From positions 5,456,001-5,520,000 of the forward strand of contig AP026073.1 in the NCBI GenBank assembly GCA_024349765.1: a stretch of 64,000 bases of DNA, read 5' to 3'. Below the pieces are notes generated by a model. That model had not been told where the DNA came from. It worked only from the letters and a program-made list of their open reading frames with translations, and made no database searches. The position numbers and the translations under genes were made by a program. Of the stretch, positions 6,195 to 52,406 are shown piece after piece. Within the stretch, counting starts at the first letter, position 1, and every line of letters begins with the position of its first letter. The stretch comes from Streptomyces nigrescens (GTDB taxonomy: Bacteria > Actinomycetota > Actinomycetes > Streptomycetales > Streptomycetaceae).

Positions 6195-6823
6195 CGGGAC
6201 TCCGGTCCGAGGTGCGCGTCCAGGGCGGCGCGCAGCAGCGGTTCGATGTCGTCGGAGCCGGTGGCGAGCGGGAGGCTGCCCCATCCCCACAGCTGGGCGA
6301 TGCCGTGCAGGTTCGCCCACAGGGCGCCCGCCACCACCGGGGGCGGCGTGTCCGCGGGCGGCCGTATCCGGGCGATCAGGTCCACGAGTACCTGGAAGAG
6401 CGGGAGGCTGGTGTCCCGTAGGCCGAGCCGGTTGCTCTCCAACAGGTCGTGACGGAACATCAGCTCGTACATGCCGCGCTCGGACAGCGCGAAGTCGAGG
6501 TAGGTGCGGGCGAGCGAGGTGAGCCGGGCGCGGGGCGACGCGTCGTCGCCGTCGAGCACCTCGGCGGTCCGGGCGGCCAGGTCGGCGAAGCCCCGGCGGG
6601 CGATCGCGGAGAGCAGGTCGAGGTGCGTCGGGAAGTAGCGGCGCGGGGCACCGTGCGAAACCCCTGCCCGGCGGGCGATTTCCCGCAGTGACAGCGCTTG
6701 CACGCCCTCGCCGGCCACCAGCTCGACACCCGCCTCGACCAGGCGGGCGCGCAGGCCCTCGTCCTGGGCGGGTTCCTCGCCCTGGGCGGGTTCCTCGTTC
6801 GCGGAGTTCACAGGGGTAGGCAT
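6191..6823 (-). CDS. TetR-family repressor
   Basis: About 210 residues. The N-terminal helix-turn-helix is LREIARRAGVSHGAPRRYF and the C-terminal ligand-binding half is helical (TetR_C/WHG type). It is the first gene of a two-gene operon with the MFS exporter, so it probably represses the pump until a toxic ligand binds. ATG 6823 is chosen; GTG 6829 is also in frame. The start codon lies at the edge of one of two operator palindromes (6823-6835), which implies a leaderless or very short-leader transcript and autoregulation. Confidence 0.88.
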   Translation of the reverse strand: MPTPVNSANEEPAQGEEPAQDEGLRARLVEAGVELVAGEGVQALSLREIARRAGVSHGAPRRYFPTHLDLLSAIARRGFADLAARTAEVLDGDDASPRARLTSLARTYLDFALSERGMYELMFRHDLLESNRLGLRDTSLPLFQVLVDLIARIRPPADTPPPVVAGALWANLHGIAQLWGWGSLPLATGSDDIEPLLRAALDAHLGPESR

Positions 6824-40091: not shown

Positions 40092-40155
40092 CGGCCCGGA
40101 ATGCGCGATGCCCACGAGAGCCGCGGCTCTCGTGGGCATCGCGCATTCCGGGCCG
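40092..40155. terminator. 64-bp perfect palindrome
   Basis: Every base of the left arm (40092-40123) is complementary to the right arm (40124-40155) with no loop; the centre is CCGCGG. It lies 14 bp after the phosphopantetheinyl transferase stop and 11 bp before the msrB fragment stop on the other strand, so it would terminate transcription from both sides. Perfection over 32 bp per arm is unusual for a simple terminator. Confidence 0.85.
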
Positions 40156-40165
40156 CCGGGCGGCG

Positions 40166-40376
40166 TCAGCTCTCGTCGGGCGTCAGCCGCAACGAGATCG
40201 AGTTGATGCAGTACCGCTGGTCCGTAGGCGTCGGGTACCCCTCGCCCTCGAAGACATGGCCGAGGTGGGAGCCGCAGCGGGCGCAGCGCACTTCGGTGCG
40301 GACCATGCCGTGCGAGCGGTCGGCCAGGAGCTCTACGGCGTCGGAGTCCTTGGGGTCGTAGAAGGACGGCCAGCCG
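40166..40376 (-). pseudogene. msrB: Severed 3' fragment of msrB (original C-terminus)
   Basis: This fragment encodes the last 70 or so residues of methionine-R-sulfoxide reductase, from GWPSFYDP through [16 protein letters not shown] and [11 protein letters not shown], ending TPDES and TGA. Bases 40184-40376 match 52017-52209 at all but one position. Upstream of 40376 the reading frame leaves the family (EKCESANHA) and has no real start. I infer that it is the old 3' end of msrB, cut off when an island inserted. Confidence 0.85.
40184..40376. repeat. Left 193-bp direct repeat of the island
   Basis: It is identical to 52017-52209 except for G at 40328 versus A at 52161. Same orientation, 11,833 bp apart. 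It lies inside the msrB 3' coding region. Confidence 0.95.
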
Positions 40377-40549
40377 GCGTGGTTCGCGGATTCACACTTC
40401 TCGGGCGCCTCATGCTGTGCGCCCACGCCCTGGTCCCGCACCAATCGAGTAGGCGAATTCTCTTGTCTCTGGGCGTCCTCCAGCCGGCGACGTCTCGCCC
40501 CCGGCCGGGGACCTCAACCACCTACCTCACCAGGGAATCGAGGACCCTC

Positions 40550-41409
40550 ATGTCCGACACCACATCTGACAGCACATCGACGCAGCACCCCGTACCCGAA
40601 CCGCTGACCGGGCTGACCGGGCTGACCGAAGCACAAGCCACCATCTACATCGAACTGGTCGGACGCACCGAACCGGCCACGGTCATCGAACTCGCCCTCG
40701 CCGCAGGCGTCGGCAAGTCCACTGCCGGAAGGGCACTGGCCATGCTGGAAGACGTGGCCTGGCCGTACGTACCCCGGGCGGTCACGACGGCCCCCGCCGC
40801 ATGCCCGACCTCTGGTACACCGCCGCCACGGCCAACGAAGCCCCCAGCACGCCGTCGAACGACGACGCCCCCGCACCGGCCCGGCCAGAGCCCTGCACGG
40901 ACGACACCACCGAGCCCACCAGCAGCTCCCTTGAAGGCAACGACAGCTCCCAGGAAAAGCCCACACCGGGCACCACGGCCCTCGAGACCGACAACACGGA
41001 CACCTGTGCCGAAGAGGAAGCCAACGCGGCACAGAGCGCCCCGTCTCAGGACACCGAGCACAACGACGGCGACGACACCAGCCAAGACGGTACGCCCAGT
41101 GAGGAGGACAGCAACAACACTTCCGCGCCGCAGGAGAACCCCGAGCCGCCAACCGCACCGGCACCACCGGCACCCAGCGCGGAAGGGCGACTCGCGCCGG
41201 GAGCACTCCGGCAGATGGTCATCGACCACCTCCGGGCACACCCCGCCGACGCATTCACCGCCACCCAGATCAGCCGCATCATCGAAAAGTCATCAGGCGC
41301 CATCGCCAACGCGCTCGACAAACTGGTCAGCCAGGGAATCGCTACGCAGGTGAATGACCGACCACGCCGATTTCAGCTCGCCAACTCGACCGTGAACACG
41401 ACGCAGTAG
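40550..41409 (+). pseudogene. Frameshifted winged-helix/MarR-like regulator
   Basis: ATG 40550 (GAGG upstream) starts MSDTTSDSTSTQHP and reads a helical DNA-binding-like segment ELALAAGVGKSTAGRALAML. Near 40757 the frame is lost. The sensible sequence resumes in another frame (GLAVRTPGGHDGPRR, then MPDLWYTA from 40801), runs through a Glu/Asp/Thr/Ser-rich linker, and ends with a second winged-helix-like module LRQMVIDHLRAHPADAFTAT, stopping at 41409. Adding one base near 40757 (GTCGGCC for GTGGCC) would fuse both parts into a protein of about 285 residues. It could be a true mutation or a sequencing error. Confidence 0.65.
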
Positions 41410-41562
41410 CTGCGCTACCGGTACGGAACCGGGTGCACCCCGCGCACCGCGCGAGGTGCACCCGGACGTCCTCTTGATCACAACCGGGCGGCCGACGCAG
41501 TGCGGATCGTGGCGGCCTCAAACAAGCCGACTGACGGGTGTAGGCGGGCGACCAGGTGCCGC
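41410..41562. other. Short gene-free gap in the island
   Basis: Between the winged-helix pseudogene and the membrane protein. AT-richer DNA; I see no gene, repeat or hairpin of note. Confidence 0.5.
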
Positions 41563-42102
41563 TCAGGAGTTATTGATCGCTGCCCATACGGCGCAGGCCA
41601 CAGCGGCTACCAGCCAGATTTCCGAGAGCCAAGAGACTGCACATTTCCTGCGAATCACAAAGTCAGACACTGCCGCTTTTCCGGCGACATGGTTGCGGAC
41701 TACCTTTGCCGCCCTGTCCGCGCTGCCCACAAAGGAATCAATGAGGGAGCCGCTGTAGGCTGCCACGAAAATCTCACTGCCGTCTCTCGCCTCGATCTTC
41801 ATATTCCCCCGGATGTCAACGAAAGCTTCCTTTATCGCCCCGGGTTCAACGTGGTATTCAAAGATGGCGTTCACCACCTGCACGTCACCGGGGGAAAGAA
41901 TGATACGAGAGCGGAGGATTCGCTGCTCGACGAAGATCGTCCCGAAGATCGCCGTTAGGCCAAGCGGAGCGCCGTTCGGGCCATCGGTGCCCATTTTGGC
42001 AACCATCAGAGCAGCCAACGCCAGGAAGAACACGGTGAAGAACCATTGCAGTACTCGATAACCGCTCCTACGCAGCTTCCGCGCTCGCTCTTTACGCTTC
42101 AT
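41563..42102 (-). CDS. Small membrane protein, candidate immunity to the RHS protein
   Basis: A 179-residue protein of no named family. It begins with a basic cluster (MKRKERARKLRRS), a hydrophobic helix at about residues 18-36 (LQWFFTVFFLALAALMVAK), a second weaker one near 45-58, then a soluble PH-like beta-rich middle (RIILSPGDVQVVNAIFEYHVEP), and a final helix near 157-175. Its codon use is AT-richer than the flanks. It starts 69 bp after the RHS stop on the same strand, exactly where polymorphic-toxin immunity genes lie. Immunity is inferred from position alone. Confidence 0.6.
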   Translation of the reverse strand: MKRKERARKLRRSGYRVLQWFFTVFFLALAALMVAKMGTDGPNGAPLGLTAIFGTIFVEQRILRSRIILSPGDVQVVNAIFEYHVEPGAIKEAFVDIRGNMKIEARDGSEIFVAAYSGSLIDSFVGSADRAAKVVRNHVAGKAAVSDFVIRRKCAVSWLSEIWLVAAVACAVWAAINNS

Positions 42103-42129
42103 CGGCTTGCTCCCTGATTCCCATCCAAA

Positions 42130-42160
42130 TCGGGATGACCCAGCAAGCGGGCCATCCCGA
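42130..42160. terminator. Hairpin between RHS gene and the candidate immunity gene
   Basis: TCGGGATG (42130-42137) and CATCCCGA (42153-42160) form a perfect 8-bp stem with a 15-nt loop. It may reduce read-through from the giant RHS gene into the small gene downstream. Confidence 0.5.
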
Positions 42161-42171
42161 CAGTCGATCTG

Positions 42172-45100
42172 TCAGCAGAATTTTGGAACGCTTGACGCCA
42201 CTACGTTCAACAGATTGCCCGCACTAGAGGCGTCTGCTCCACAGAAGCCCACATTGAATGCACCGTTGATACTCATGTTGCCATAGGCCTGTTTCCAGTT
42301 TATTGGTCCGCGAAAAGTTTTATCGATGGTCCAGGTTTTCCGTCCGCCGCCTACACCTGCAACTCCAGGGATCTTGGTTTTGTACATTCTTGAAGTCCTG
42401 GTGAGGGGGCTGCCCCAATAAGCTTCAGACCAGCTCTTCGCCCCTCCGAATGCCCTACCGAAGGCTGCGGCAGTTCCACCGCCCACTAGCGTCCATGCCA
42501 AGTCTTTCGAGTATGACTTGACGTCGAAGTTTCCTGTTTTCATTCCGTCACCCGCAAATTTGAGGGTAGCGACAGCCACTCCCGCACCGGCACACAATCC
42601 TGCCGATGCAGCCAGGCAAGTGACGAATCCTGCGACCGTCGCGACTGTCTTGATGTCGTCCCAGTGGTCGCTGACCCAGCCCGATGCGGAATTCCACGCC
42701 TTCTCCCACCAGGGTTTCGGCTTGGGCGGCGCCGGCTTCGGCTTGGGTTTTCCATACCCGGCGTCCTTCCCCGTGCTCACGTAGTCCCGGTACCAGCTGG
42801 AGCTGTAGTAGCTGCGCCAGGTCTTGTTGTAGGAGCTGATGAAGCGCTTGTACTTCCTGGTGGGGTGGCCGTAGCGGTCGGTGTATCCCTGGTCGCGGTA
42901 CCAGTTCCGGTGGGCTGTGCTGTTGCCGTAGCCGAGGCCGGTCTCGCGGTCCTGGAACTGTTGGCCGTCAGGGTCGGAGGCGGTGACGGGAGTGTTGTTG
43001 GCGTAGGCGTAGGCGTTGGACTGCTGGGGGTCGTCGGGGTCGAGGAGCGGGTCGACGGAGAGGAAGGTTCCTAGGGCCGGATCGTACTCGCGGGCGCCTA
43101 TGTGGGTGAGTCCTGTGCCTTCCTGGGTGCCATCGACGAATCCGTGTGTGCCGGGCCAGGACGTCGGTTGAGCAGTGCGGGGTGCTCCGAAGGGGAGCTG
43201 AGTGCGGCGGGTGATTGCCTGGTCGGTGGCAGCCACGGCGGTCAGTGCCGTGCCCTGGTGGTCGGTGAAGAGGTAGGAGAGGCCTCCGGTGCTGGTGCGC
43301 ACGGCGACGGTGTCCTCGCCATGGGTGTAGTAGCGGGTACCGACGGTGGATCCGTCGTCGTAGGTCTTGAGCTCGTTGCCGTTCGGCAGGTAGAGGGTGG
43401 TGCTGCCGTCGCTGTTGTGGGTGAGGAGTCGGTCGCCTTCGGTGTCGTAGAGGTAGCTGGTGTCCTTGCCGTCCTCGGTGACCGCCGCGAGGCGTCCTTC
43501 GGCGTCCCAGGTGAAGGTCTGGTTGCGGCCCGCTTCTTGGCGGGTGCGGAGGTTGCCGGCTTCGTCGTAGGTGAACTTGTCGACGTCACCGTTGGCAGGG
43601 CCGCCCTGAGTGCTGACGGTGGTGACGGCGTGCGGCCGGTCCTTCTTGGCGTCAGGGAAGTCGGAGTTGCGGGTGACGTCTTGTCCTGCGGTGGTTCCGG
43701 AGACCTGGTGCTGTGTCTCCTTCTTCCGGTTGCCGACCGCGTCGTAGGTGTAGCTGCGCCAGTAGGGGGCTGGGCCGCCCACGGTGGTTGTCGAGGGCGC
43801 GGTGGTGCAGTCCTTGGTGGTCGTCCAGGCTTCGGTCAAGCGGCGCAGGGCGTCCATGGTGAAGCACTGGGTGTCGGTGGTTTTGGTTTTGTCCTGGCCG
43901 CTGGTCGTGGTGAGACCGGTGATGTTGCCGGCGTTGTCGTAGGTGTAGGCGATGTCGTCGATGCGCTGGGGGGCTGTGTCGCGGTCGGTGGTCTGCCGCA
44001 TGAGGTCGCCGGTGTGTTCGTCGTAGCTCTGTGTCTTGTAGAGCTTCTTGCCCAGAGTGCCGCCGTATTCGGTGCGTAGTGGTCGGGAGAAGGGGTCGTG
44101 CGAGGTCTGGTTGACCAGGACCTGCGAGCCGGCAGTGGTCTTTTGCGGGAGGTTCCCGTCGCTGAGGACGGTGGTGACGCGTTCGGAGGGGAGTCCGCCG
44201 AGGGCGGGGTTGAGGGTCCACTCCTGGATGCCGGTGTAGGTGTTGTAGCCGTATTTGAAGGTGTAGTCGGTCGTGGTGCCTTGTTGGCCGGGGAGGGTGA
44301 CGGTGGTGGAGGTCGGCTGGTAGCGGTCGTTGTAGCCGCCGGTGCTGGTGGTGTATTCCTTGCCGTCTTCGATGCGGGTTTCGGAACTGAGCTGGCCCTT
44401 GGCGAGGGTGTCGTAGGTCCACCTGGCGCGGATGGTGGAGCCCTGCTTGAGGGTGGTTCTGCGGCCCAGGGCGTCGTAGCCGGTGGTCAGGGTGGTGCCG
44501 CGTGCGTCGGTGACGGTGGTGGGGCGGTCGGCGTTGTCGTAGGTCGTGGTGGTGGTGCCCTTGTCGGGGTCATGGGCGCTGATCTGGCGGCCGCGGGCGT
44601 CCTGGGTGTACGTCCAGGTGTTGCCTGCGGGGTCGGTCATGCTGGCGAGCTTGTCGTGCTGGTCATAGGTGTAGGTGGTGGCCTGGTAGTCGCTCATGCC
44701 GCTGGAGGTGTACTGGCGCAGTTCGGTGGTGCGGCCACGGGCATCGGTGAGCGTGGTGGTGGCGGTCGCCCCCTTGGGCGGGATGACGGTGGTGCGGTCG
44801 CCGCCGTAGGTGGTGGTGGTGCGCCGGGTTTCGTCTCCGTACCTGCGTGAGATGGCGGCGGTGATGCGGCCGCTGCCGTCGTAGGTGTTCTCGGTGAGGT
44901 GGGGAACGGTGTTGTCCGCTGCCTTCACCGGGGTCGCGGAGGGTTGGCCGTCGGCGTAGTAGGGGTTGTAGGTCTTCCAGGTCCAGCCGTGGGTGTCGTA
45001 GAGGGTTTCGGCGATGAGGCGTCCGCCGCCGGGGGCCGGTGTCTGGGTTTCGCGTTCGCGCAGCAGGCCGTCGTAGAGGTTGTAGGTGGTGTGGTAGCTG

Positions 45101-48100
45101 GCGTCGTACTGGAGGGTTTTGGTGGTGACGACGTTGGGTGTGGTGGTGGAGAGGGCGTAGGTGTATTCGGTGGACGGCATGCCGGGGTGGTCGGCCTTGG
45201 TCCAGCCGGGCTGCCACAGTTTGGTCAGGCGTCCGAGGGCGTCGTAGGTGGCGTCGGTGCGTTTGCCGTTGGCGTCGATGGTGGCAAGTGGAGTGCCCCG
45301 GGCCGGGTCGTCCTGAGTGGTCTCGGTGTGTCCGAGCGGGTTGGTGGTAACGGTGGTGAGGGGGGTGGCGCCGGTGGCGGGGGTGAAGTCGGTGGTGGTC
45401 GTGGCTCCTGTGGCGTCGGTGGAGGTGTGGACCCGGCCGTAGGCGTCGTAGGTCCGGGTCTCGGTGGTCAGGAAGCCGGTGCCGGCTGCGTCCTGGCCGT
45501 CGGTGCGGGTGATATCGCCCTTGGTGGGTGGGGCCGCGAGGGTGGTGGAGCCGTCGTAGTAGCTGCGTTCGACCGAGACCAGGTCTTTGGGCAGAGCGGG
45601 GGTGGCGTCACAGTCGACGGCTACGGTCTTGGCCTCGGCGACGAGGTCGAGGATGTTGGCTTGAGTGTTGCGTGCGTAGCGGGTGGTGGTGCAGCGTTCG
45701 TCGCCGGTCTTCGCCGTGTCACCGGTCTCGGAGGAGGTGGTGATCTGGCCGTAGTCGTCGAAGGTGTTGTCAGTGCGGGTGCGTCGCCATGCTCCGCCGG
45801 TGATGGCCTCGCGGGTGGCGGTGGTCTTGGTGTCGGTCATGTAGGCGACCAGGTCGGGCAGTCCGGCGCGGGCGTGGGTGGCGGTGGGGGCGGAGCGCCA
45901 GGGAGTGGTGACCGTGGCCTTGAGGATCTTGTCGCTGTCGCCGTCGTAGGTGATTTCCTCGCGGGGCATCCCGGCGAAGGCTTCGTGGTCGTCGGTGGTG
46001 TTGCCTTCCGAGTCAGGGACCTTGGATCCGTTGATGCCTCGGAAGTACCGGGTTTCGGTGAGGGTGGTCTTGTCGTTGCCGGCACCGACGCGTTCTTGGA
46101 CTCTGGCGTAGCCGCGCTGGTCCCCGTAAGTGCGGTATTTGGCCTTGGTGAAGGGGTCCTGGTCCTTGGCCCATGCTGCTCCGCCTGGGTAGCTGTAGGC
46201 GGTCTGCTTGATGGGCGCTCCGGCGGTGTTGTCGGATTCGAGGACCTGCGTGACGACGTAGGAGTGGAACCAGTCGAGGTAGGGCTCGCCGTTGGGGCCC
46301 GGGGAGTCGGGTGGCGACCACATCACCGGGTAGCAGCGGGTGATGTTGCTGTCGGGCTGGGGAAGTGAGGTGGCGGTGCAGCCTGGCTGGGAGTAGGTGA
46401 CGCCGATCGTGCCGCCGCTCTCGGTGTCGATGCCGTAGATGCGGTAGCGCACGAGCGGGGGTATCTCTTCGTGGACGCGCTCGACGCGGTTGGCCAGCTG
46501 CTGGCCGCGGAAGGAGACGGCGGGCAGGGTGACGGCCGGGTCGGCGGTGTGGCCGGTGCGCTGGATGGAGGCGAGCCACAGTGCGGGATCGGACCCGTCG
46601 CCGGTGGAGGGGAACTGGTGGGTCAGCTTCCAGGCGTCCACCGTCTTGTAGGCGCTGCCCACCAGGAGGTGGGTGGTGATGTCGGTGAGGCGTTTACGGG
46701 TCCAGAAGGAGGGCGAGTACCTGTTTTTGCACTCGTCGCCTTCATTGCAGTACTGGTCGAAGGGTACGTCGGGCCAGTTCTTGGCGTGGGTGGCGTCGAA
46801 GGTGGTGCACTCATCGAGGCATCGTTCGGAGGTGCCAAAGGTGACGGTGGCCGCGGCGCCATTGGTGGCGTACATGGCGGTTGCGCGCAGGCCGTATTCG
46901 ATGCGCTTGAGGCTGCCGCCCCGGACGTACGACGTGGCGGTGGATGTGCCGGTGGTGTCGGAGACGTTGCGCCCGTAGTAGTTGGTCTCCTTGTCCCAGT
47001 AGTAGGCCATGGCATTGCCGTGCGGGTCGACCACATAGTCGAGGTTCCAGCGCCAGGCCTGCTGACACCAGGAGTCCGCGAAGGCGGTCTGGTGGCAGGG
47101 TTCGCCGGGGTGGTTTCCGAAGACGGGCACGGTCCAGGTGGAGTTGGTTTCGGTCTTGCCGTCGCTCCAGCCGGGCAGGCGGTTGTAGCCGTAGTAATAG
47201 CTGGTGCCGTCGGGTGTGGTGACACGCCAGTATTCGCCGTTGTTGTCGCCGTTGCCGCGTTCGGTGTTGCTGAGCTGTTCGACCTTGGTGCCGTCGTCGT
47301 CCTTCAAGTGCCAGACGGTGGGCTTGTCGCTGTCTTTGTTCTCCGTGTCGTCCTTGACGAGTTCGTGGGACTTGCCGGCGAGGGAGAGGGTGGCGTTGTC
47401 GGTCTTCCAGCACAGGTCGCCGACTTTGGTGGTGCTGTTGCCGCCACTGTCGTCGTCCATGCAAGGGGTGTAGCGACGTTCTATGCCGCCTGGTTCCATC
47501 GACCAGCCGTCGCCGATCCAGTTTGCCTGGTTGTTGGTTGCCGCGGTGCGGCCATCGACGGACTGGGAGGAGTAAGACAGGCCGAGGTCGGGGGCAAGGT
47601 CTCCCGGTACATCCGGAACGTCGAGGTCGTAGCTCCAGGAAAAGGCTCCGGAGGAGCCGCCGGCTGTCCATGTGCCGGAGGGAGAAAGGGCGGTGGCTTT
47701 GAAGTCACCGGATGCTCCGGCAGGTGCTGCGGTGGCGGCGAGCAGGGTCACGTCGTTGCTCGCCGCGGTGAGGCCTTGGGGGGCTTTCGCCGACGTGGGT
47801 GTGTGAGCCAAGAGGGCTTTGCCTGAGGGTGCTGTGCGTGCGGGCTTGAGGCTGAGGGCGCCGGAGAGCTTGCCCGCCGGGACATCGTTGTGGGTGTCGA
47901 GCGGGATAGCGGGGCCGCAGGGGTGCGACGCTTTGGTGGTCAAGGCGCATGCGGGGAGGCGGCGCAGGGTCAGGCGTGACGCCCAGTCGCCGCCGTAGGC
48001 GTGGCGGAAGCCCGAGTAGTCGAGTTCGACCTCGACCTTGCCTGCGGATCCGCCTTTGCCTCGTACTGCGAGGACCACGCCCTCCATGCCGAGGGCCTTG

Positions 48101-48516
48101 GTGGCGTTGCGGTCGAGGACCTGGATGTCGAGGCGCTGGGGGCCGGTCGGCTCGCTGGTGCGGGCACCTGAGAGGCTCCGGGCCTTGAGGGGTAGCGTTC
48201 CGGCTGCGGCGAACGAAGGGACAGCCTTGCCGTCGGCTTGCAAGGAGACTGTCGCGGTCTGGGCCTTGGGCCAGGTCACCGTTGGGGGGCGTTTCCACGC
48301 GTGCGCGCGGGCTTGGTCAGGCTTGGGGACACTACGGCCTGGGCTGGCTTTGACGGGTACGGGCTTGGTCTTCTGTTGTGCGGGCAACTCCAGGCCGGCC
48401 GCTGCTGCCGCTATCGGTTCTCCGAGAAGCCCGCCTAACAGGCAAGCGGCGAGCACCGTCGCGATTCCTGTCCGTGCGCTTCTTCGTCTGCCTCTGGCGC
48501 GCCCGCATTCAGCCAT
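42172..48516 (-). CDS. Secreted RHS/YD-repeat protein with distinct C-terminal region
   Basis: About 2,114 residues. It has a signal peptide (RRSARTGIATVLAACLLGGLL). An N-terminal SpvB/TcB-like segment (GAFSWSYDLDVPDVPGDLAP) precedes a long YD-repeat region with repeats such as YDALGRLTKLWQPG and YDALGRRTTLKQGS. The RHS-core end is AREYDPALGTFLSVDPLLDP, then NAYAYANNTPVTASDPDG. The following 263 residues (42172-42963) are non-repeat: a basic Tyr/Trp-rich stretch, a Pro/Lys hinge, a hydrophobic pretoxin-like segment (TVAGFVTCLAASAGLCAGAG) and a Cys-containing tail. No known toxin motif is recognised. ATG 48516 is eight bases after GGGGGGG; GTG 48522 is also possible. Confidence 0.9.
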   Translation of the reverse strand: MAECGRARGRRRSARTGIATVLAACLLGGLLGEPIAAAAAGLELPAQQKTKPVPVKASPGRSVPKPDQARAHAWKRPPTVTWPKAQTATVSLQADGKAVPSFAAAGTLPLKARSLSGARTSEPTGPQRLDIQVLDRNATKALGMEGVVLAVRGKGGSAGKVEVELDYSGFRHAYGGDWASRLTLRRLPACALTTKASHPCGPAIPLDTHNDVPAGKLSGALSLKPARTAPSGKALLAHTPTSAKAPQGLTAASNDVTLLAATAAPAGASGDFKATALSPSGTWTAGGSSGAFSWSYDLDVPDVPGDLAPDLGLSYSSQSVDGRTAATNNQANWIGDGWSMEPGGIERRYTPCMDDDSGGNSTTKVGDLCWKTDNATLSLAGKSHELVKDDTENKDSDKPTVWHLKDDDGTKVEQLSNTERGNGDNNGEYWRVTTPDGTSYYYGYNRLPGWSDGKTETNSTWTVPVFGNHPGEPCHQTAFADSWCQQAWRWNLDYVVDPHGNAMAYYWDKETNYYGRNVSDTTGTSTATSYVRGGSLKRIEYGLRATAMYATNGAAATVTFGTSERCLDECTTFDATHAKNWPDVPFDQYCNEGDECKNRYSPSFWTRKRLTDITTHLLVGSAYKTVDAWKLTHQFPSTGDGSDPALWLASIQRTGHTADPAVTLPAVSFRGQQLANRVERVHEEIPPLVRYRIYGIDTESGGTIGVTYSQPGCTATSLPQPDSNITRCYPVMWSPPDSPGPNGEPYLDWFHSYVVTQVLESDNTAGAPIKQTAYSYPGGAAWAKDQDPFTKAKYRTYGDQRGYARVQERVGAGNDKTTLTETRYFRGINGSKVPDSEGNTTDDHEAFAGMPREEITYDGDSDKILKATVTTPWRSAPTATHARAGLPDLVAYMTDTKTTATREAITGGAWRRTRTDNTFDDYGQITTSSETGDTAKTGDERCTTTRYARNTQANILDLVAEAKTVAVDCDATPALPKDLVSVERSYYDGSTTLAAPPTKGDITRTDGQDAAGTGFLTTETRTYDAYGRVHTSTDATGATTTTDFTPATGATPLTTVTTNPLGHTETTQDDPARGTPLATIDANGKRTDATYDALGRLTKLWQPGWTKADHPGMPSTEYTYALSTTTPNVVTTKTLQYDASYHTTYNLYDGLLRERETQTPAPGGGRLIAETLYDTHGWTWKTYNPYYADGQPSATPVKAADNTVPHLTENTYDGSGRITAAISRRYGDETRRTTTTYGGDRTTVIPPKGATATTTLTDARGRTTELRQYTSSGMSDYQATTYTYDQHDKLASMTDPAGNTWTYTQDARGRQISAHDPDKGTTTTTYDNADRPTTVTDARGTTLTTGYDALGRRTTLKQGSTIRARWTYDTLAKGQLSSETRIEDGKEYTTSTGGYNDRYQPTSTTVTLPGQQGTTTDYTFKYGYNTYTGIQEWTLNPALGGLPSERVTTVLSDGNLPQKTTAGSQVLVNQTSHDPFSRPLRTEYGGTLGKKLYKTQSYDEHTGDLMRQTTDRDTAPQRIDDIAYTYDNAGNITGLTTTSGQDKTKTTDTQCFTMDALRRLTEAWTTTKDCTTAPSTTTVGGPAPYWRSYTYDAVGNRKKETQHQVSGTTAGQDVTRNSDFPDAKKDRPHAVTTVSTQGGPANGDVDKFTYDEAGNLRTRQEAGRNQTFTWDAEGRLAAVTEDGKDTSYLYDTEGDRLLTHNSDGSTTLYLPNGNELKTYDDGSTVGTRYYTHGEDTVAVRTSTGGLSYLFTDHQGTALTAVAATDQAITRRTQLPFGAPRTAQPTSWPGTHGFVDGTQEGTGLTHIGAREYDPALGTFLSVDPLLDPDDPQQSNAYAYANNTPVTASDPDGQQFQDRETGLGYGNSTAHRNWYRDQGYTDRYGHPTRKYKRFISSYNKTWRSYYSSSWYRDYVSTGKDAGYGKPKPKPAPPKPKPWWEKAWNSASGWVSDHWDDIKTVATVAGFVTCLAASAGLCAGAGVAVATLKFAGDGMKTGNFDVKSYSKDLAWTLVGGGTAAAFGRAFGGAKSWSEAYWGSPLTRTSRMYKTKIPGVAGVGGGRKTWTIDKTFRGPINWKQAYGNMSINGAFNVGFCGADASSAGNLLNVVASSVPKFC

Positions 48517-48601
48517 GAACACATCCCCCCCATTGATTTCACAACATCCCCATCAAGTGGCCCGGAAGCTAACAGCGCCCTCGCGAGTCACGCCAGGGCC
48601 A

Positions 48602-51600
48602 GTGAGACCACACAGATCCCTGGCCGCCCTGGCCGCTGTCGCCACGATGACGACGGTCTTGTCCGCCCTGGCCGAACCATCGACCGCATCAGCGACGACG
48701 AACAGTGCTGCACATGCATCAGCCGCCACCGCAGTCCGCGACTCTCTGGCAACGCAGGCAGCAAAGGCCTCTCAGCAGGCGGCGGATACCGGGGAGCCGG
48801 TCGAGGTTCTCGGCCAGCGCACAGAGACCTCGCAGGTGTTCGCCAACCCGTCGGGCACCTACACCGAGGAGCGCTACGCAACCGCCCAATGGGTCCACAA
48901 AGACGGCAAGTTAGCCAGCATCGACACTTCTCTCGAGAGTGACGGCCGCGGCCGATTCAACGCCAAGGCAACCGAGGTGGCGGTGTCGTTGTCAGGGGGT
49001 GGCAGCGGGCCGCTTGCCACCGTCACGCGCGATGGCCGGAGCATCTCCCTTGCCTGGCCCAAGGCCCTCCCGACCCCCGAGGTGGACGGCGACACCGCCA
49101 CCTACCCCAACGTCCTTCCGGACGTGGACCTGAAAGTGCGCGCCGACCCGGCCGGTTTTGGGCAACTCCTGGTGGTCAAAACACCCGAAGCGGCCACCAA
49201 CCCGGACCTTGCCACGTTGCAGTACAGCATGGCCAGCAACGGAGTCGACGTATCCGTCGACGAGCATGACAACCTTCGAGCGGTCAATCCGGCAGGTCAG
49301 GAAGTCTTCACCGGCCCCACGCCGCGGATGTGGGACAGCACCACAGAACCTGCAGGACAGCCGGCCGCCAAGGTCCCTGCCTCGGCGTCTCCACCGACCC
49401 AGGGCGCAAGGAACGACGACGAGTTCATCCCCGGGCCCGGAGCCAAGCAAGCACCGGTTCAGATCGACGTCCACGGCAAGAGCCTCCAACTCACCCCGGA
49501 CCAAGAGCTCCTCAAGGGCAAGGACACCAAGTACCCGCTCTACATCGATCCGTACATCGAAGGCTCGCGCTACGCCTGGACCATCGCCTACGAGAAGTAC
49601 CCCAACAGCGCCTTCTACAACGGTGCCGGCTGGATCGAACGCGATGGCAAAAAAGGGACCACGACCGCCCGGGTCGGCTACGAGAACGAAACCAACGGCC
49701 TGGGACGTTCCTACTTCCGCATGAACACCAAGAACCTGTGGAGTACCAACAAGAAGGTCCTCCACTCCACGTTCCGGATCATGAACAAGTGGTCGTGGTC
49801 GTGCAGCAGCCGCCCGGTGGACATGTACCGGACCGACACCATCAGCTCCGCCACCACCTGGAACAACCAACCCGCCAAACGCGGCAAGCTCGACACGGTC
49901 AATGACGCCAAGGGCTGGGGCACTGGATGCCCTGCCGGTAATTTGGCCTTCGACACCACAACAGCGGCCAAGGACGCCGCGTCGGGGCACTGGAACACCA
50001 TCACCCTGCTGCTCCAGGCCGCCGACGAATCAGACGTCTACGGGTGGAAGAAGTTCGACGCGAAGTCGGCGGTGCTGTCTACCGAGTACAACACCGTCCC
50101 CAACGCTCCCACCGGCCTGTACACCCATCCCTCCAGCGGGTCCAAGTGCGGTGCCACCGCGCCCTACACGGTGATCGGCAACACCGACATCACTCTCGGC
50201 GCGAAATTCGGCGATCGCGACGGCGGTACGGTCAAGGCCCAGTTCGTCCTGTGGCCCACCGGCCACGGCGGCGCCGACAACGAAGTCCGCAAAACCATCT
50301 CTGTCACCTCCAACACCCTCGGCAAGCTCGTCGTCCCCAAAGCCACTCTCACCTCCCTTCTCAAGAACGCCGGAGTGGCCGGCACCGGCACCTTCAGCTG
50401 GTGGGCGCAGACCTCCGACGGCTCCCTGGTCAGCGCCTGGAGCCCCCAGTGTCACTTCCAGTTCGACGCCACACGCCCCAGCCACCCCCCTACAGTGACC
50501 TCACCTCAGTTCCCCGACGGCAGCGACGGCTGGCCCGCAGTCACCGGCTCCGTCCGCAGCCCCGGCACCTTCACCGTCGCCAGCGGCGGAGTGAGCGACG
50601 TCGTCTCCTACACCTACTGGACAGAGACCGACGACACCCGCCGCACCACCAAACCCGCCACTACCGGCGGCTCAGCAACCCTGGCACTCACCCCCACCCT
50701 CACCGGCGCCAACCAGCTCTACGTCCAAAGCTCCGACCGCGCCGGCAACCGCTCCGACACCACCACCTACCTCTTCTACGCCAACGGCCCCAAACAGCCC
50801 GACAAGCCGGGAGATCTCAACGGTGACGGCAACGCCGACCTGTGGGGCGTCGACAAAGACGGCACCCTGCACCGCTTCTACGGAAGCGGCAACGGCACCC
50901 TCACCGAAGCCAACGCCACCGCCTCCCAGGCCACCTGGAACAACACCAAGATCACCCACCGCGGCGACTGGACCTCCGACGGCTACGAAGACCTCATCTC
51001 CCTGAGCAACGACCCCGCTCTGGGCGCCCAACGCCTATGGGTCCAACCGAACAACGGATACGGCTACGCCTGCACCGACTGCAGCGGCGACGGCACCCAG
51101 CGACAAGAACTCACCGTCTACGACGAAGCCAACAACCACTGGAAGAACGGGGCCAAACAGATCCTCGCCGTAGGCGACGTCGACGGCCCCCTCGACACCA
51201 ACGGCGACGGCACACCCGACACACCCGGCTACCCCGACCTGGTCGTCAACGACGGCACCTACGTCTGGCTCTACTACGGCGGCCCCGACTACCGCCTCGA
51301 CACCGAAGCCGCCCCCGTCCTCCTCGGCGGCCCCGACGACCCCCTGGCCGAAGGCGCATCAAAGATCAGCGAAATCACCCTCGCCGCAGCCGGAGACTGG
51401 AACGCCGACGGGACACCCGACCTGGTCGCCCGCTACGACCGCGCCGACGCCGGCGGCCTGTACGTCTTCAACGCCACCAAGGAAGACGGCGACTACGGCA
51501 TCAGCCTCTCCCACCGCACTCCCATCGGCCCCAACTTCTCCACCACCACCGTCCCCACCTTCACCGCAGCCCCCGACGCCAACAACAACGGCAAACTCGA

Positions 51601-51721
51601 CCTGTGGGCCACCACACCCAACTCCGGAAGACTCCGCGCCTTCCTCGACCTCACCAGCACAGGTACCGGCCAAGTGATCAGTGCCTCTGAAAACTTCGCT
51701 GGTTACCAAACCATCAGCTGA
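48602..51721 (+). CDS. Large secreted protein with FG-GAP repeats
   Basis: 1,039 residues, divergent from the RHS gene. GTG 48602 gives a clean signal peptide (RPHRSLAALAAVATMTTVLS, then ALAEPSTASA). An N-terminal domain (EVLGQRTETSQVFANPSGTY, WVHKDGKLASIDTSLESDGR) resembles the non-toxin leader modules of large Streptomyces surface proteins. A DNRLRE/CBM96-like region (KNLWSTNKKVLHSTFRI, SSATTWNNQP) lies mid-protein. At least four FG-GAP/VCBS repeats (GDLNGDGNADLWGV, GDWTSDGYEDLIS, GDVDGPLDTNGDGTPDTPGY, GDWNADGTPDLVARY) suggest a calcium-binding beta-propeller at about 730-1039. No catalytic motif. Upstream ATG 48515 would collide with the RHS start. Confidence 0.82.
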   Translation: MRPHRSLAALAAVATMTTVLSALAEPSTASATTNSAAHASAATAVRDSLATQAAKASQQAADTGEPVEVLGQRTETSQVFANPSGTYTEERYATAQWVHKDGKLASIDTSLESDGRGRFNAKATEVAVSLSGGGSGPLATVTRDGRSISLAWPKALPTPEVDGDTATYPNVLPDVDLKVRADPAGFGQLLVVKTPEAATNPDLATLQYSMASNGVDVSVDEHDNLRAVNPAGQEVFTGPTPRMWDSTTEPAGQPAAKVPASASPPTQGARNDDEFIPGPGAKQAPVQIDVHGKSLQLTPDQELLKGKDTKYPLYIDPYIEGSRYAWTIAYEKYPNSAFYNGAGWIERDGKKGTTTARVGYENETNGLGRSYFRMNTKNLWSTNKKVLHSTFRIMNKWSWSCSSRPVDMYRTDTISSATTWNNQPAKRGKLDTVNDAKGWGTGCPAGNLAFDTTTAAKDAASGHWNTITLLLQAADESDVYGWKKFDAKSAVLSTEYNTVPNAPTGLYTHPSSGSKCGATAPYTVIGNTDITLGAKFGDRDGGTVKAQFVLWPTGHGGADNEVRKTISVTSNTLGKLVVPKATLTSLLKNAGVAGTGTFSWWAQTSDGSLVSAWSPQCHFQFDATRPSHPPTVTSPQFPDGSDGWPAVTGSVRSPGTFTVASGGVSDVVSYTYWTETDDTRRTTKPATTGGSATLALTPTLTGANQLYVQSSDRAGNRSDTTTYLFYANGPKQPDKPGDLNGDGNADLWGVDKDGTLHRFYGSGNGTLTEANATASQATWNNTKITHRGDWTSDGYEDLISLSNDPALGAQRLWVQPNNGYGYACTDCSGDGTQRQELTVYDEANNHWKNGAKQILAVGDVDGPLDTNGDGTPDTPGYPDLVVNDGTYVWLYYGGPDYRLDTEAAPVLLGGPDDPLAEGASKISEITLAAAGDWNADGTPDLVARYDRADAGGLYVFNATKEDGDYGISLSHRTPIGPNFSTTTVPTFTAAPDANNNGKLDLWATTPNSGRLRAFLDLTSTGTGQVISASENFAGYQTIS

Positions 51722-51758
51722 CCCTTCCCACACAACGGCCAGGGATGGCGACAGACGC

Positions 51759-51792
51759 CTGGGTGCTCTCACCGCGCGGGGAGAGCACCCAG
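51759..51792 (+). terminator. Hairpin downstream of the FG-GAP gene
   Basis: CTGGGTGCTCTC (51759-51770), a 10-nt loop and GAGAGCACCCAG (51781-51792) form a perfect 12-bp stem, 38 bp past the stop. The rest of the gap up to the msrB gene (51793-51968) shows no gene. Confidence 0.75.
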
Positions 51793-51968
51793 ATGGCATC
51801 AACCTCAGACCTTCAGCCCCCGTCGCTTCACACGTCATGTCGCTGGTGGGGCGATACGGTGGAGCACGCGCGGGGGATGGTCCCGTGCGGAGGTACGGAT
51901 GCCTGGAGTGTCCGAACTACTCCCCACGCGTCAGCAAGTGGCCCCGAGATGCTGCTGGACACGCTGGT

Positions 51969-52406
51969 CTATGGCCTGTGCTCCCCATGCGAGCGAGGAC
52001 GGTCCTCCTCAGGGAGCAGCCGCAACGAGATCGAGTTGATGCAGTACCGCTGGTCCGTAGGCGTCGGGTACCCCTCGCCCTCGAAGACATGGCCGAGGTG
52101 GGAGCCGCAGCGGGCGCAGCGCACTTCGGTGCGGACCATGCCGTGCGAGCGGTCGGCCAGAAGCTCTACGGCGTCGGAGTCCTTGGGGTCGTAGAAGGAC
52201 GGCCAGCCGCAGTGGCTCTCGAACTTGGTGTCGGAGCGGAAGAGTTCGGCGCCGCAGGCGCGGCAGGAGTAGATTCCCGACGTCTTGGTGTCGGTGTATT
52301 CGCCGACGAAGGCGGGCTCGGTGCCGGCCTGGCGGAGTACCTGGTACTCGGCGGGGGTCAGCTCGGCGCGCCACTGCTCATCGGGCTTGTCGATCTCGTA
52401 CGGCAT
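51969..52406 (-). CDS. msrB: Peptide methionine-R-sulfoxide reductase MsrB
   Basis: A 145-residue repair enzyme that reduces methionine-R-sulfoxide. Zinc ligands are Cys48, Cys51, Cys97 and Cys100; the catalytic Cys122 is in RYCINS, with GHVF upstream. The gene is complete, but its last 15 residues (LLPEEDRPRSHGEHRP) differ from the TPDES tail of the fragment at 40166. The final part of the coding sequence (52017-52209) is the right copy of the island repeat, so the functional gene appears to be a host 5' part joined to an island-supplied 3' part. It precedes murC by only 18 bp in a likely operon. Confidence 0.93.
   Translation of the reverse strand: MPYEIDKPDEQWRAELTPAEYQVLRQAGTEPAFVGEYTDTKTSGIYSCRACGAELFRSDTKFESHCGWPSFYDPKDSDAVELLADRSHGMVRTEVRCARCGSHLGHVFEGEGYPTPTDQRYCINSISLRLLPEEDRPRSHGEHRP
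52017..52209. repeat. Right 193-bp direct repeat of the island
   Basis: It matches 40184-40376 with one mismatch and covers residues about 66-130 of MsrB. It presumably marks the island's right boundary. Confidence 0.95.

Follow-up and report, generated by a model that had tools for sequence, protein, structure and literature searches.

Composite arrays are found among staphylococcal cassette chromosome (SCC) elements, and recombinase-free cassettes also occur. Passages of PMC3146451 describe SCC cassettes as using serine recombinases and inserting in a conserved gene; they also describe ssrA islands of Dehalococcoides, serine-recombinase islands that lie in one conserved single-copy gene, where direct repeats of the gene's 3' end mark tandem copies, with a conserved motif beside the repeat, and an integration module that is missing in some islands. 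An integrase-less element flanked by functional att sites is there termed cis-mobilizable. For Streptomyces, parts of PMC9513070 and PMC3218068 deal with actinomycete integrative and conjugative elements (AICEs) and accretion sites, with direct repeats of up to hundreds of bases in tRNA genes or in protein genes such as rlmN, where several elements can share a site and decay, while portions of PMC10083194 and PMC12924846 describe serine-recombinase insertions at conserved coding-sequence sites with attachment sites of about 50 bp. Here we analyze an island that splits and rebuilds the msrB gene in a 64,000-nucleotide stretch of Streptomyces nigrescens contig AP026073.1 (the window). We consider it highly probable that this island is a cassette put into codon 67 of msrB by site-specific recombination, the enzyme likely being a large serine recombinase of the Bxb1 type, and recurrent insertion at this codon across Streptomyces is well supported by sequence comparison. 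The first-pass annotation of the window had read the locus as the footprint of an element that, on integrating in a protein gene, restores that gene; the recurrent codon-67 junction, the exchanged and displaced gene halves, and a recombinase at the junction in another genome (G281; genomes are numbered with G and loci with L) strengthen that proposal.

Results

The island is bounded by two direct copies of the msrB 3' region (Table 1) that start 11,833 bp apart and differ at a single one of 193 bases (G at 40328, A at 52161), the same values as those first annotated. A search of the S. nigrescens genome (9.33 Mb, 2 contigs; E<=0.001) detected these two copies and no third. The left copy is a severed msrB 3' half that ends in LTPDES followed by the stop codon and adjoins a phosphopantetheinyl transferase (PPTase) gene; because a PPTase gene also lies downstream of msrB in L041, L044, and L146, this copy occupies the place of the native 3' end. 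The right copy lies within a complete msrB and reads as native save for base 52161 and the tail past codon 131, confirming the change of the last residues noted at first. The 145-aa product is long, since all 80 named relatives have an MsrB of 133-138 aa (135 aa in 62 of them), and joining the window flanks without the island gives a 135-aa MsrB. Judged by eye against G161, the long tail seems to have arisen when one base was lost from an imported stop codon. As annotated, the DNA between the repeats is AT-richer, with a GC content of 65.3% compared to 74.5% and 74.9% in the flanks.

A first search of 61 genomes with its follow-up showed that several Streptomyces carry additional msrB 3' pieces close to the full gene. 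In a survey of 392 genomes of the genus, 18 yielded more than one match to the MsrB C-terminus (E<=1e-10). Five of them were dropped after position sorting, their matches lying on other contigs or far away (G111, G222, G236, G258, and G325). Also excluded were the weak second piece of G002 and that of G308, a decayed msrB 3' piece (L153 9435-9560) about 460 kb away from the msrB of that genome. G001 and G012 fell under the survey cut-off and were added from the earlier search. Extra pieces on the contig of the full gene, within about 12 kb of it, were thus counted in 13 of the 392 genomes, that of the window included (G000, G001, G012, G021, G030, G073, G161, G199, G233, G261, G267, G281, and G394), a lower bound for this sample because short or decayed pieces escape the search. 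We examined 16 pieces (window, L013-L016, L140-L149, and L151), among them those of G069, which lie on two contigs and stand outside the 13-genome count. Twelve of the 16 begin at msrB codon 67 (GGC TGG), the kind of site-specific junction that defines a large-serine-recombinase genomic island; in L014 the start may lie one codon before it, and there are internal deletions in L015 and L140.

The cargo of the pieces scanned varies from genome to genome and is mostly unlike that of the window. It comprises a MoxR-type ATPase with a DUF2201 protein, plus a SUKH-4 protein, in G030; WXG100 proteins, together with a helicase that fits PDC-S68, a candidate-defence model, in G281; DUF4132 in G267; and kinases in G394. 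The GC content of ten other cassettes ranges from 62.5 to 72.3% and is sometimes not below that of the surroundings. The same kind of junction with other cargo was what the first-pass annotation had suggested looking for at the msrB loci of relatives. Its opposite case, relatives sharing the cargo of the window, applies in part: G161 retains, beside its msrB, a sequence 93.8% identical to the last 547 bp of the FG-GAP gene of the island, whereas cargo elsewhere is mostly different. The island is therefore not unique to this strain. The msrB-murC stretches of G161 and the window are 89.3% identical. The shared remnant fits common ancestry or repeated insertion as well. Two further features were seen in G281: a gene for a 530-aa protein with no clear family flanks an msrB junction twice, the second copy being apparently broken (L142 6851-10442), and the cassette that carries the serine recombinase also encodes two DNA methyltransferases, of the N6/N4 and C5 types (L144 2349-4158).

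In four genomes the working msrB is a chimera (L141, L143, L147, and L150) whose 3' half is coded in another way, with DAR[ND] in place of DPKD, and the exchanged half of the protein includes the RYCINS motif, which we take to be catalytic. In L141, L144, and L149, the far end carries a native-type half. The clearest comparison is between G281 and G012, in which the 5' halves are 97.0% identical and the displaced 3' half of G281 is 95.3% identical to its G012 counterpart, compared to 79.2% for the 3' half now in use. Outside its two junctions, the DNA of G281 matches that of G233 and G012 at about 89-92%; neither of these is pristine, as each retains, farther downstream, a short and old remnant of msrB (L151, L016). 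Two further junctions with an arm and an element-type half (L142 and L143) suggest that G281 carries three cassettes in tandem.

A duplication of msrB in which one copy decays would also leave a mere fragment beside a whole gene. Such a segmental duplication, or an assembly artefact, is nevertheless extremely unlikely, as it is the whole gene of G281 that contains the foreign half, the half of native type having been displaced, and the pieces share their start point across separate assemblies. An artefact, which the first-pass annotation had named as a possible refutation, is further disfavored by the different flanks of the two window copies and by the recurrence of the layout in other assemblies.

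Homologous (Campbell-type) integration of a circular DNA bearing a piece of msrB would require no integrase and would yield near-identical repeats, as found in the window and L148 (99%) and, to a lesser degree, in L146 (95%). On the other hand, the recurrent start at codon 67 and the conserved arm speak against it, the halves are only 78-80% identical in L141, L143/L144, and L150/L149, and a recombinase gene lies at the G281 junction, so we regard this explanation as improbable. Because the halves in these three clear exchanges differ to that extent, the near-identity of the window copies probably reflects later gene conversion.

Directly before codon 67, the window carries a 22-bp element arm (P arm, Table 1), the first 16 bases of which have one exact copy in the genome. 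Among the window, L143, L145, and L146, the arm agrees at 18-19 of 22 positions in all six pairs; over the next 22 bases agreement falls to 3-8 positions in five pairs and is 14 for the window and L146. L142 has a partial arm (8-10/22), and L144 a similar arm at a shorter spacing. In element-borne halves, the codons for DARN read GCGTGCATC on the opposite strand, the mirror of GTGTGMATC. An attP site is expected to be a palindrome of about 49 bp beside the serine integrase gene; in L143, two 17-base arms agree at 13 positions, as judged by eye. The sequence of the right att site of the window suggests that it is now native-like.

In G281 (L144), a gene for a 505-aa recombinase starts at 6629, 40 bp from the junction at 6669, and reads away from it, with the arm GTGTGCATCC starting at 6650. 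The protein combines Resolvase, Recombinase, and zinc-ribbon domains. Its match to PDB 9iu2, a 500-aa integrase that we take to be that of Bxb1, has E=1.4e-46. The catalytic Arg, Ser, and Gln, given as Arg8, Ser10, and Gln22 of Bxb1 in a passage of PMC12884075, are aligned in the G281 protein. CcrA, CcrB, and CcrC models scored only 23.6-49.1 bits on it, against cut-offs of 700-900, which places it outside the Ccr recombinases. Its relatives were absent from IMG/VR, and identity to phage proteins was at most about 35% in 15 phage records, among the matches listed.

Tyrosine recombinases were considered as the agent, given that two genes with Phage_integrase domains, presumably a Tn554-like pair, lie beyond the msrB piece of G021 (L014 1400-5025). 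A 97%-identical relative in G286 sits about 1.4 Mb from the msrB of that genome, and we judge this agent very unlikely, although no systematic search for tyrosine recombinases covered the surroundings of the other pieces. A serine recombinase is most likely the agent, on the strength of one genome and the architecture of the sites.

Several observations weigh against insertion by such an enzyme at codon 67. Four of the 16 pieces start elsewhere, at residues 87-109. The arm is present at only 5 of the 12 codon-67 junctions in a 15-base scan allowing up to 3 mismatches, and that scan detected none at the others, the partial arm of L142 apart; the right copy of the window has no P' arm. A PF07508 match beside an msrB piece was found in 1 of 15 genomes searched, G281 itself, and in overlapping samples of 392, 391, and 395 genomes there was neither a second close copy of the recombinase nor a relative of it beside msrB. 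The tandem array of G281 is not closed, its last junction being on another contig. Finally, none of the 80 named loci (L033-L112) has a piece or an element-type half within the flanks available, which reach at most 10 kb and are in some cases far shorter, so that a half displaced farther would escape.

The features of the window are collected in Table 1. The giant protein noted at first in the island was verified as an RHS protein by its matches to RHS_repeat and TIGR03696. Its neighbor, a 179-aa open reading frame (ORF), could have an immunity role, but this is only a guess. No other copy of the second part of the broken regulator gene was found in the genome. The early impression that no integrase is visible holds: no recombinase was identified with Pfam and NCBIfam among the four island ORFs scanned, and a tblastn search of the window and 19 other loci detected nothing left of the G281 recombinase. 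The island therefore departs from a large-serine-recombinase island, which encodes its recombinase, such a gene being found at the G281 junction only. The same scan, from which the first frame of the split regulator gene was excluded, revealed no AICE integrase, Rep, or TraB genes and no phage structural genes. The interval that separates the PPTase gene from the displaced msrB half contains a perfect 64-bp palindrome (40092-40155) made of two 32-bp arms with no spacer, perhaps a two-way terminator.

Table 1. Coordinates of the msrB island and its features in the window.
Feature	Position	Strand	Evidence
Displaced msrB 3' half, left repeat copy; frame runs to the native stop just below 40184	40184..40376	-	192/193 to right copy
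22-bp element arm (P arm), GTGTGAATCCGCGAACCACGCC, directly before codon 67	40376..40397	-	18-19/22 with L143, L145, L146
Inserted island between msrB repeats	40377..52016		Repeat boundaries, GC
Helix-turn-helix (HTH)/MarR-like regulator in two frames, apparently broken	40550..41409	+	MarR_2 E=0.0038 (below cut-off); second ORF 40801-41409
179-aa ORF behind RHS gene	41563..42102	-	No Pfam/NCBIfam matches
2116-aa RHS protein	42172..48522	-	RHS_repeat 6.4e-17; RHS core TIGR03696 5.7e-15
FG-GAP repeat protein, start codon not fixed	48602..51721	+	FG-GAP_3 5.2e-10
Complete msrB: native 5' half, imported or converted 3' half, altered tail	51969..52406	-	SelR 4e-50, codon alignment
Right repeat copy; codon 67 (crossover point) at 52206-52208	52017..52209	-	

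Searches of a phage collection returned msrB-like matches in 2 and 14 records, none labeled Streptomyces, and the result tables for a plasmid collection list 5 Streptomyces records, the best being a 2.8-Mb replicon. In one IMG/VR search, four pattern matches were inspected and none was followed by msrB. On the other hand, IMG/VR record UViG_3300012083_000019 has an MsrB C-terminal end at the contig edge (L157 1-136) with phage-like genes beside it, as seen by eye, and is perhaps another msrB-linked provirus. Judged from titles and abstract openings, none of the open-access papers listed in our literature searches reports msrB as an integration site, and no open-access paper combining msrB, attB, integrase, and Streptomyces was found. 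The word "sulfoxide" is absent from the available parts of PMC10083194, PMC12884075, and PMC12924846, as are "msr" from those of PMC9513070 (0 matches) and msrB from passages of PMC3218068.

Discussion

Our preferred explanation is that recombination took place between msrB and a circular element that carried its own msrB 3' half within its attachment site. It would have joined the native 5' half to the 3' half of the element, keeping msrB whole, and moved the native 3' half to the far end, beside the P arm of the element. The enzyme was most likely a Bxb1-like large serine recombinase supplied by a related element, the cassette, probably an old one, having lost the gene or never had one. After insertion, the right copy is expected to carry a half of the element type. 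Later gene conversion between the halves would explain its native reading, their near-identity, and the absence of a P' arm on the right; this loss would in turn block excision by the integrase and restore the target site. The unusual codons GTA and GCC, common to the element type, are present in both window copies, so conversion may have run both ways. We infer, in this sequence of steps, the type of recombinase that acted at the window, the gene conversion, and the loss of mobility.

More tentatively, and with somewhat less than even confidence, msrB may be the landing site of a group of small, SCC-like, mostly integrase-free cassettes that have a single attachment site in common and in which the P' half-site is held in the codons of the catalytic half, conversion locking the cassette in place and reopening the target. 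If so, each insertion would swap the catalytic half of MsrB for an element-borne version. More broadly, the comparisons point to a hotspot where integration recurs at an exact codon of a conserved protein gene, in a genus of industrial importance, and the candidate serine integrase and its attachment sites are open to direct testing. They also provide a natural case of a mobile element exchanging half of a conserved redox enzyme, at a site with varied cargo, from an RHS protein to genes matching candidate-defence models.

The layout is closest to Dehalococcoides ssrA islands, SCC cassettes, and Streptomyces accretion sites. The ssrA islands differ, in the passages of PMC3146451, by a tmRNA target, a 20-bp repeat, and a CcrB-like integrase, whereas at msrB the repeated segment is part of a protein gene and spans about 200 bp, and the recombinase of G281 is Bxb1-like. 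SCC has another target gene, and the G281 recombinase falls far under the Ccr cut-offs. Unlike AICEs, the window island has no recognized replication, transfer, or integrase genes. In the serine-recombinase insertions described in portions of PMC10083194 and PMC12924846, protein genes are disrupted or targeted, whereas the msrB element brings with it a substitute for half of the protein. The unusual feature of the msrB cassettes is that half of a conserved enzyme is replaced by an element-borne version whose codons hold an attachment arm.

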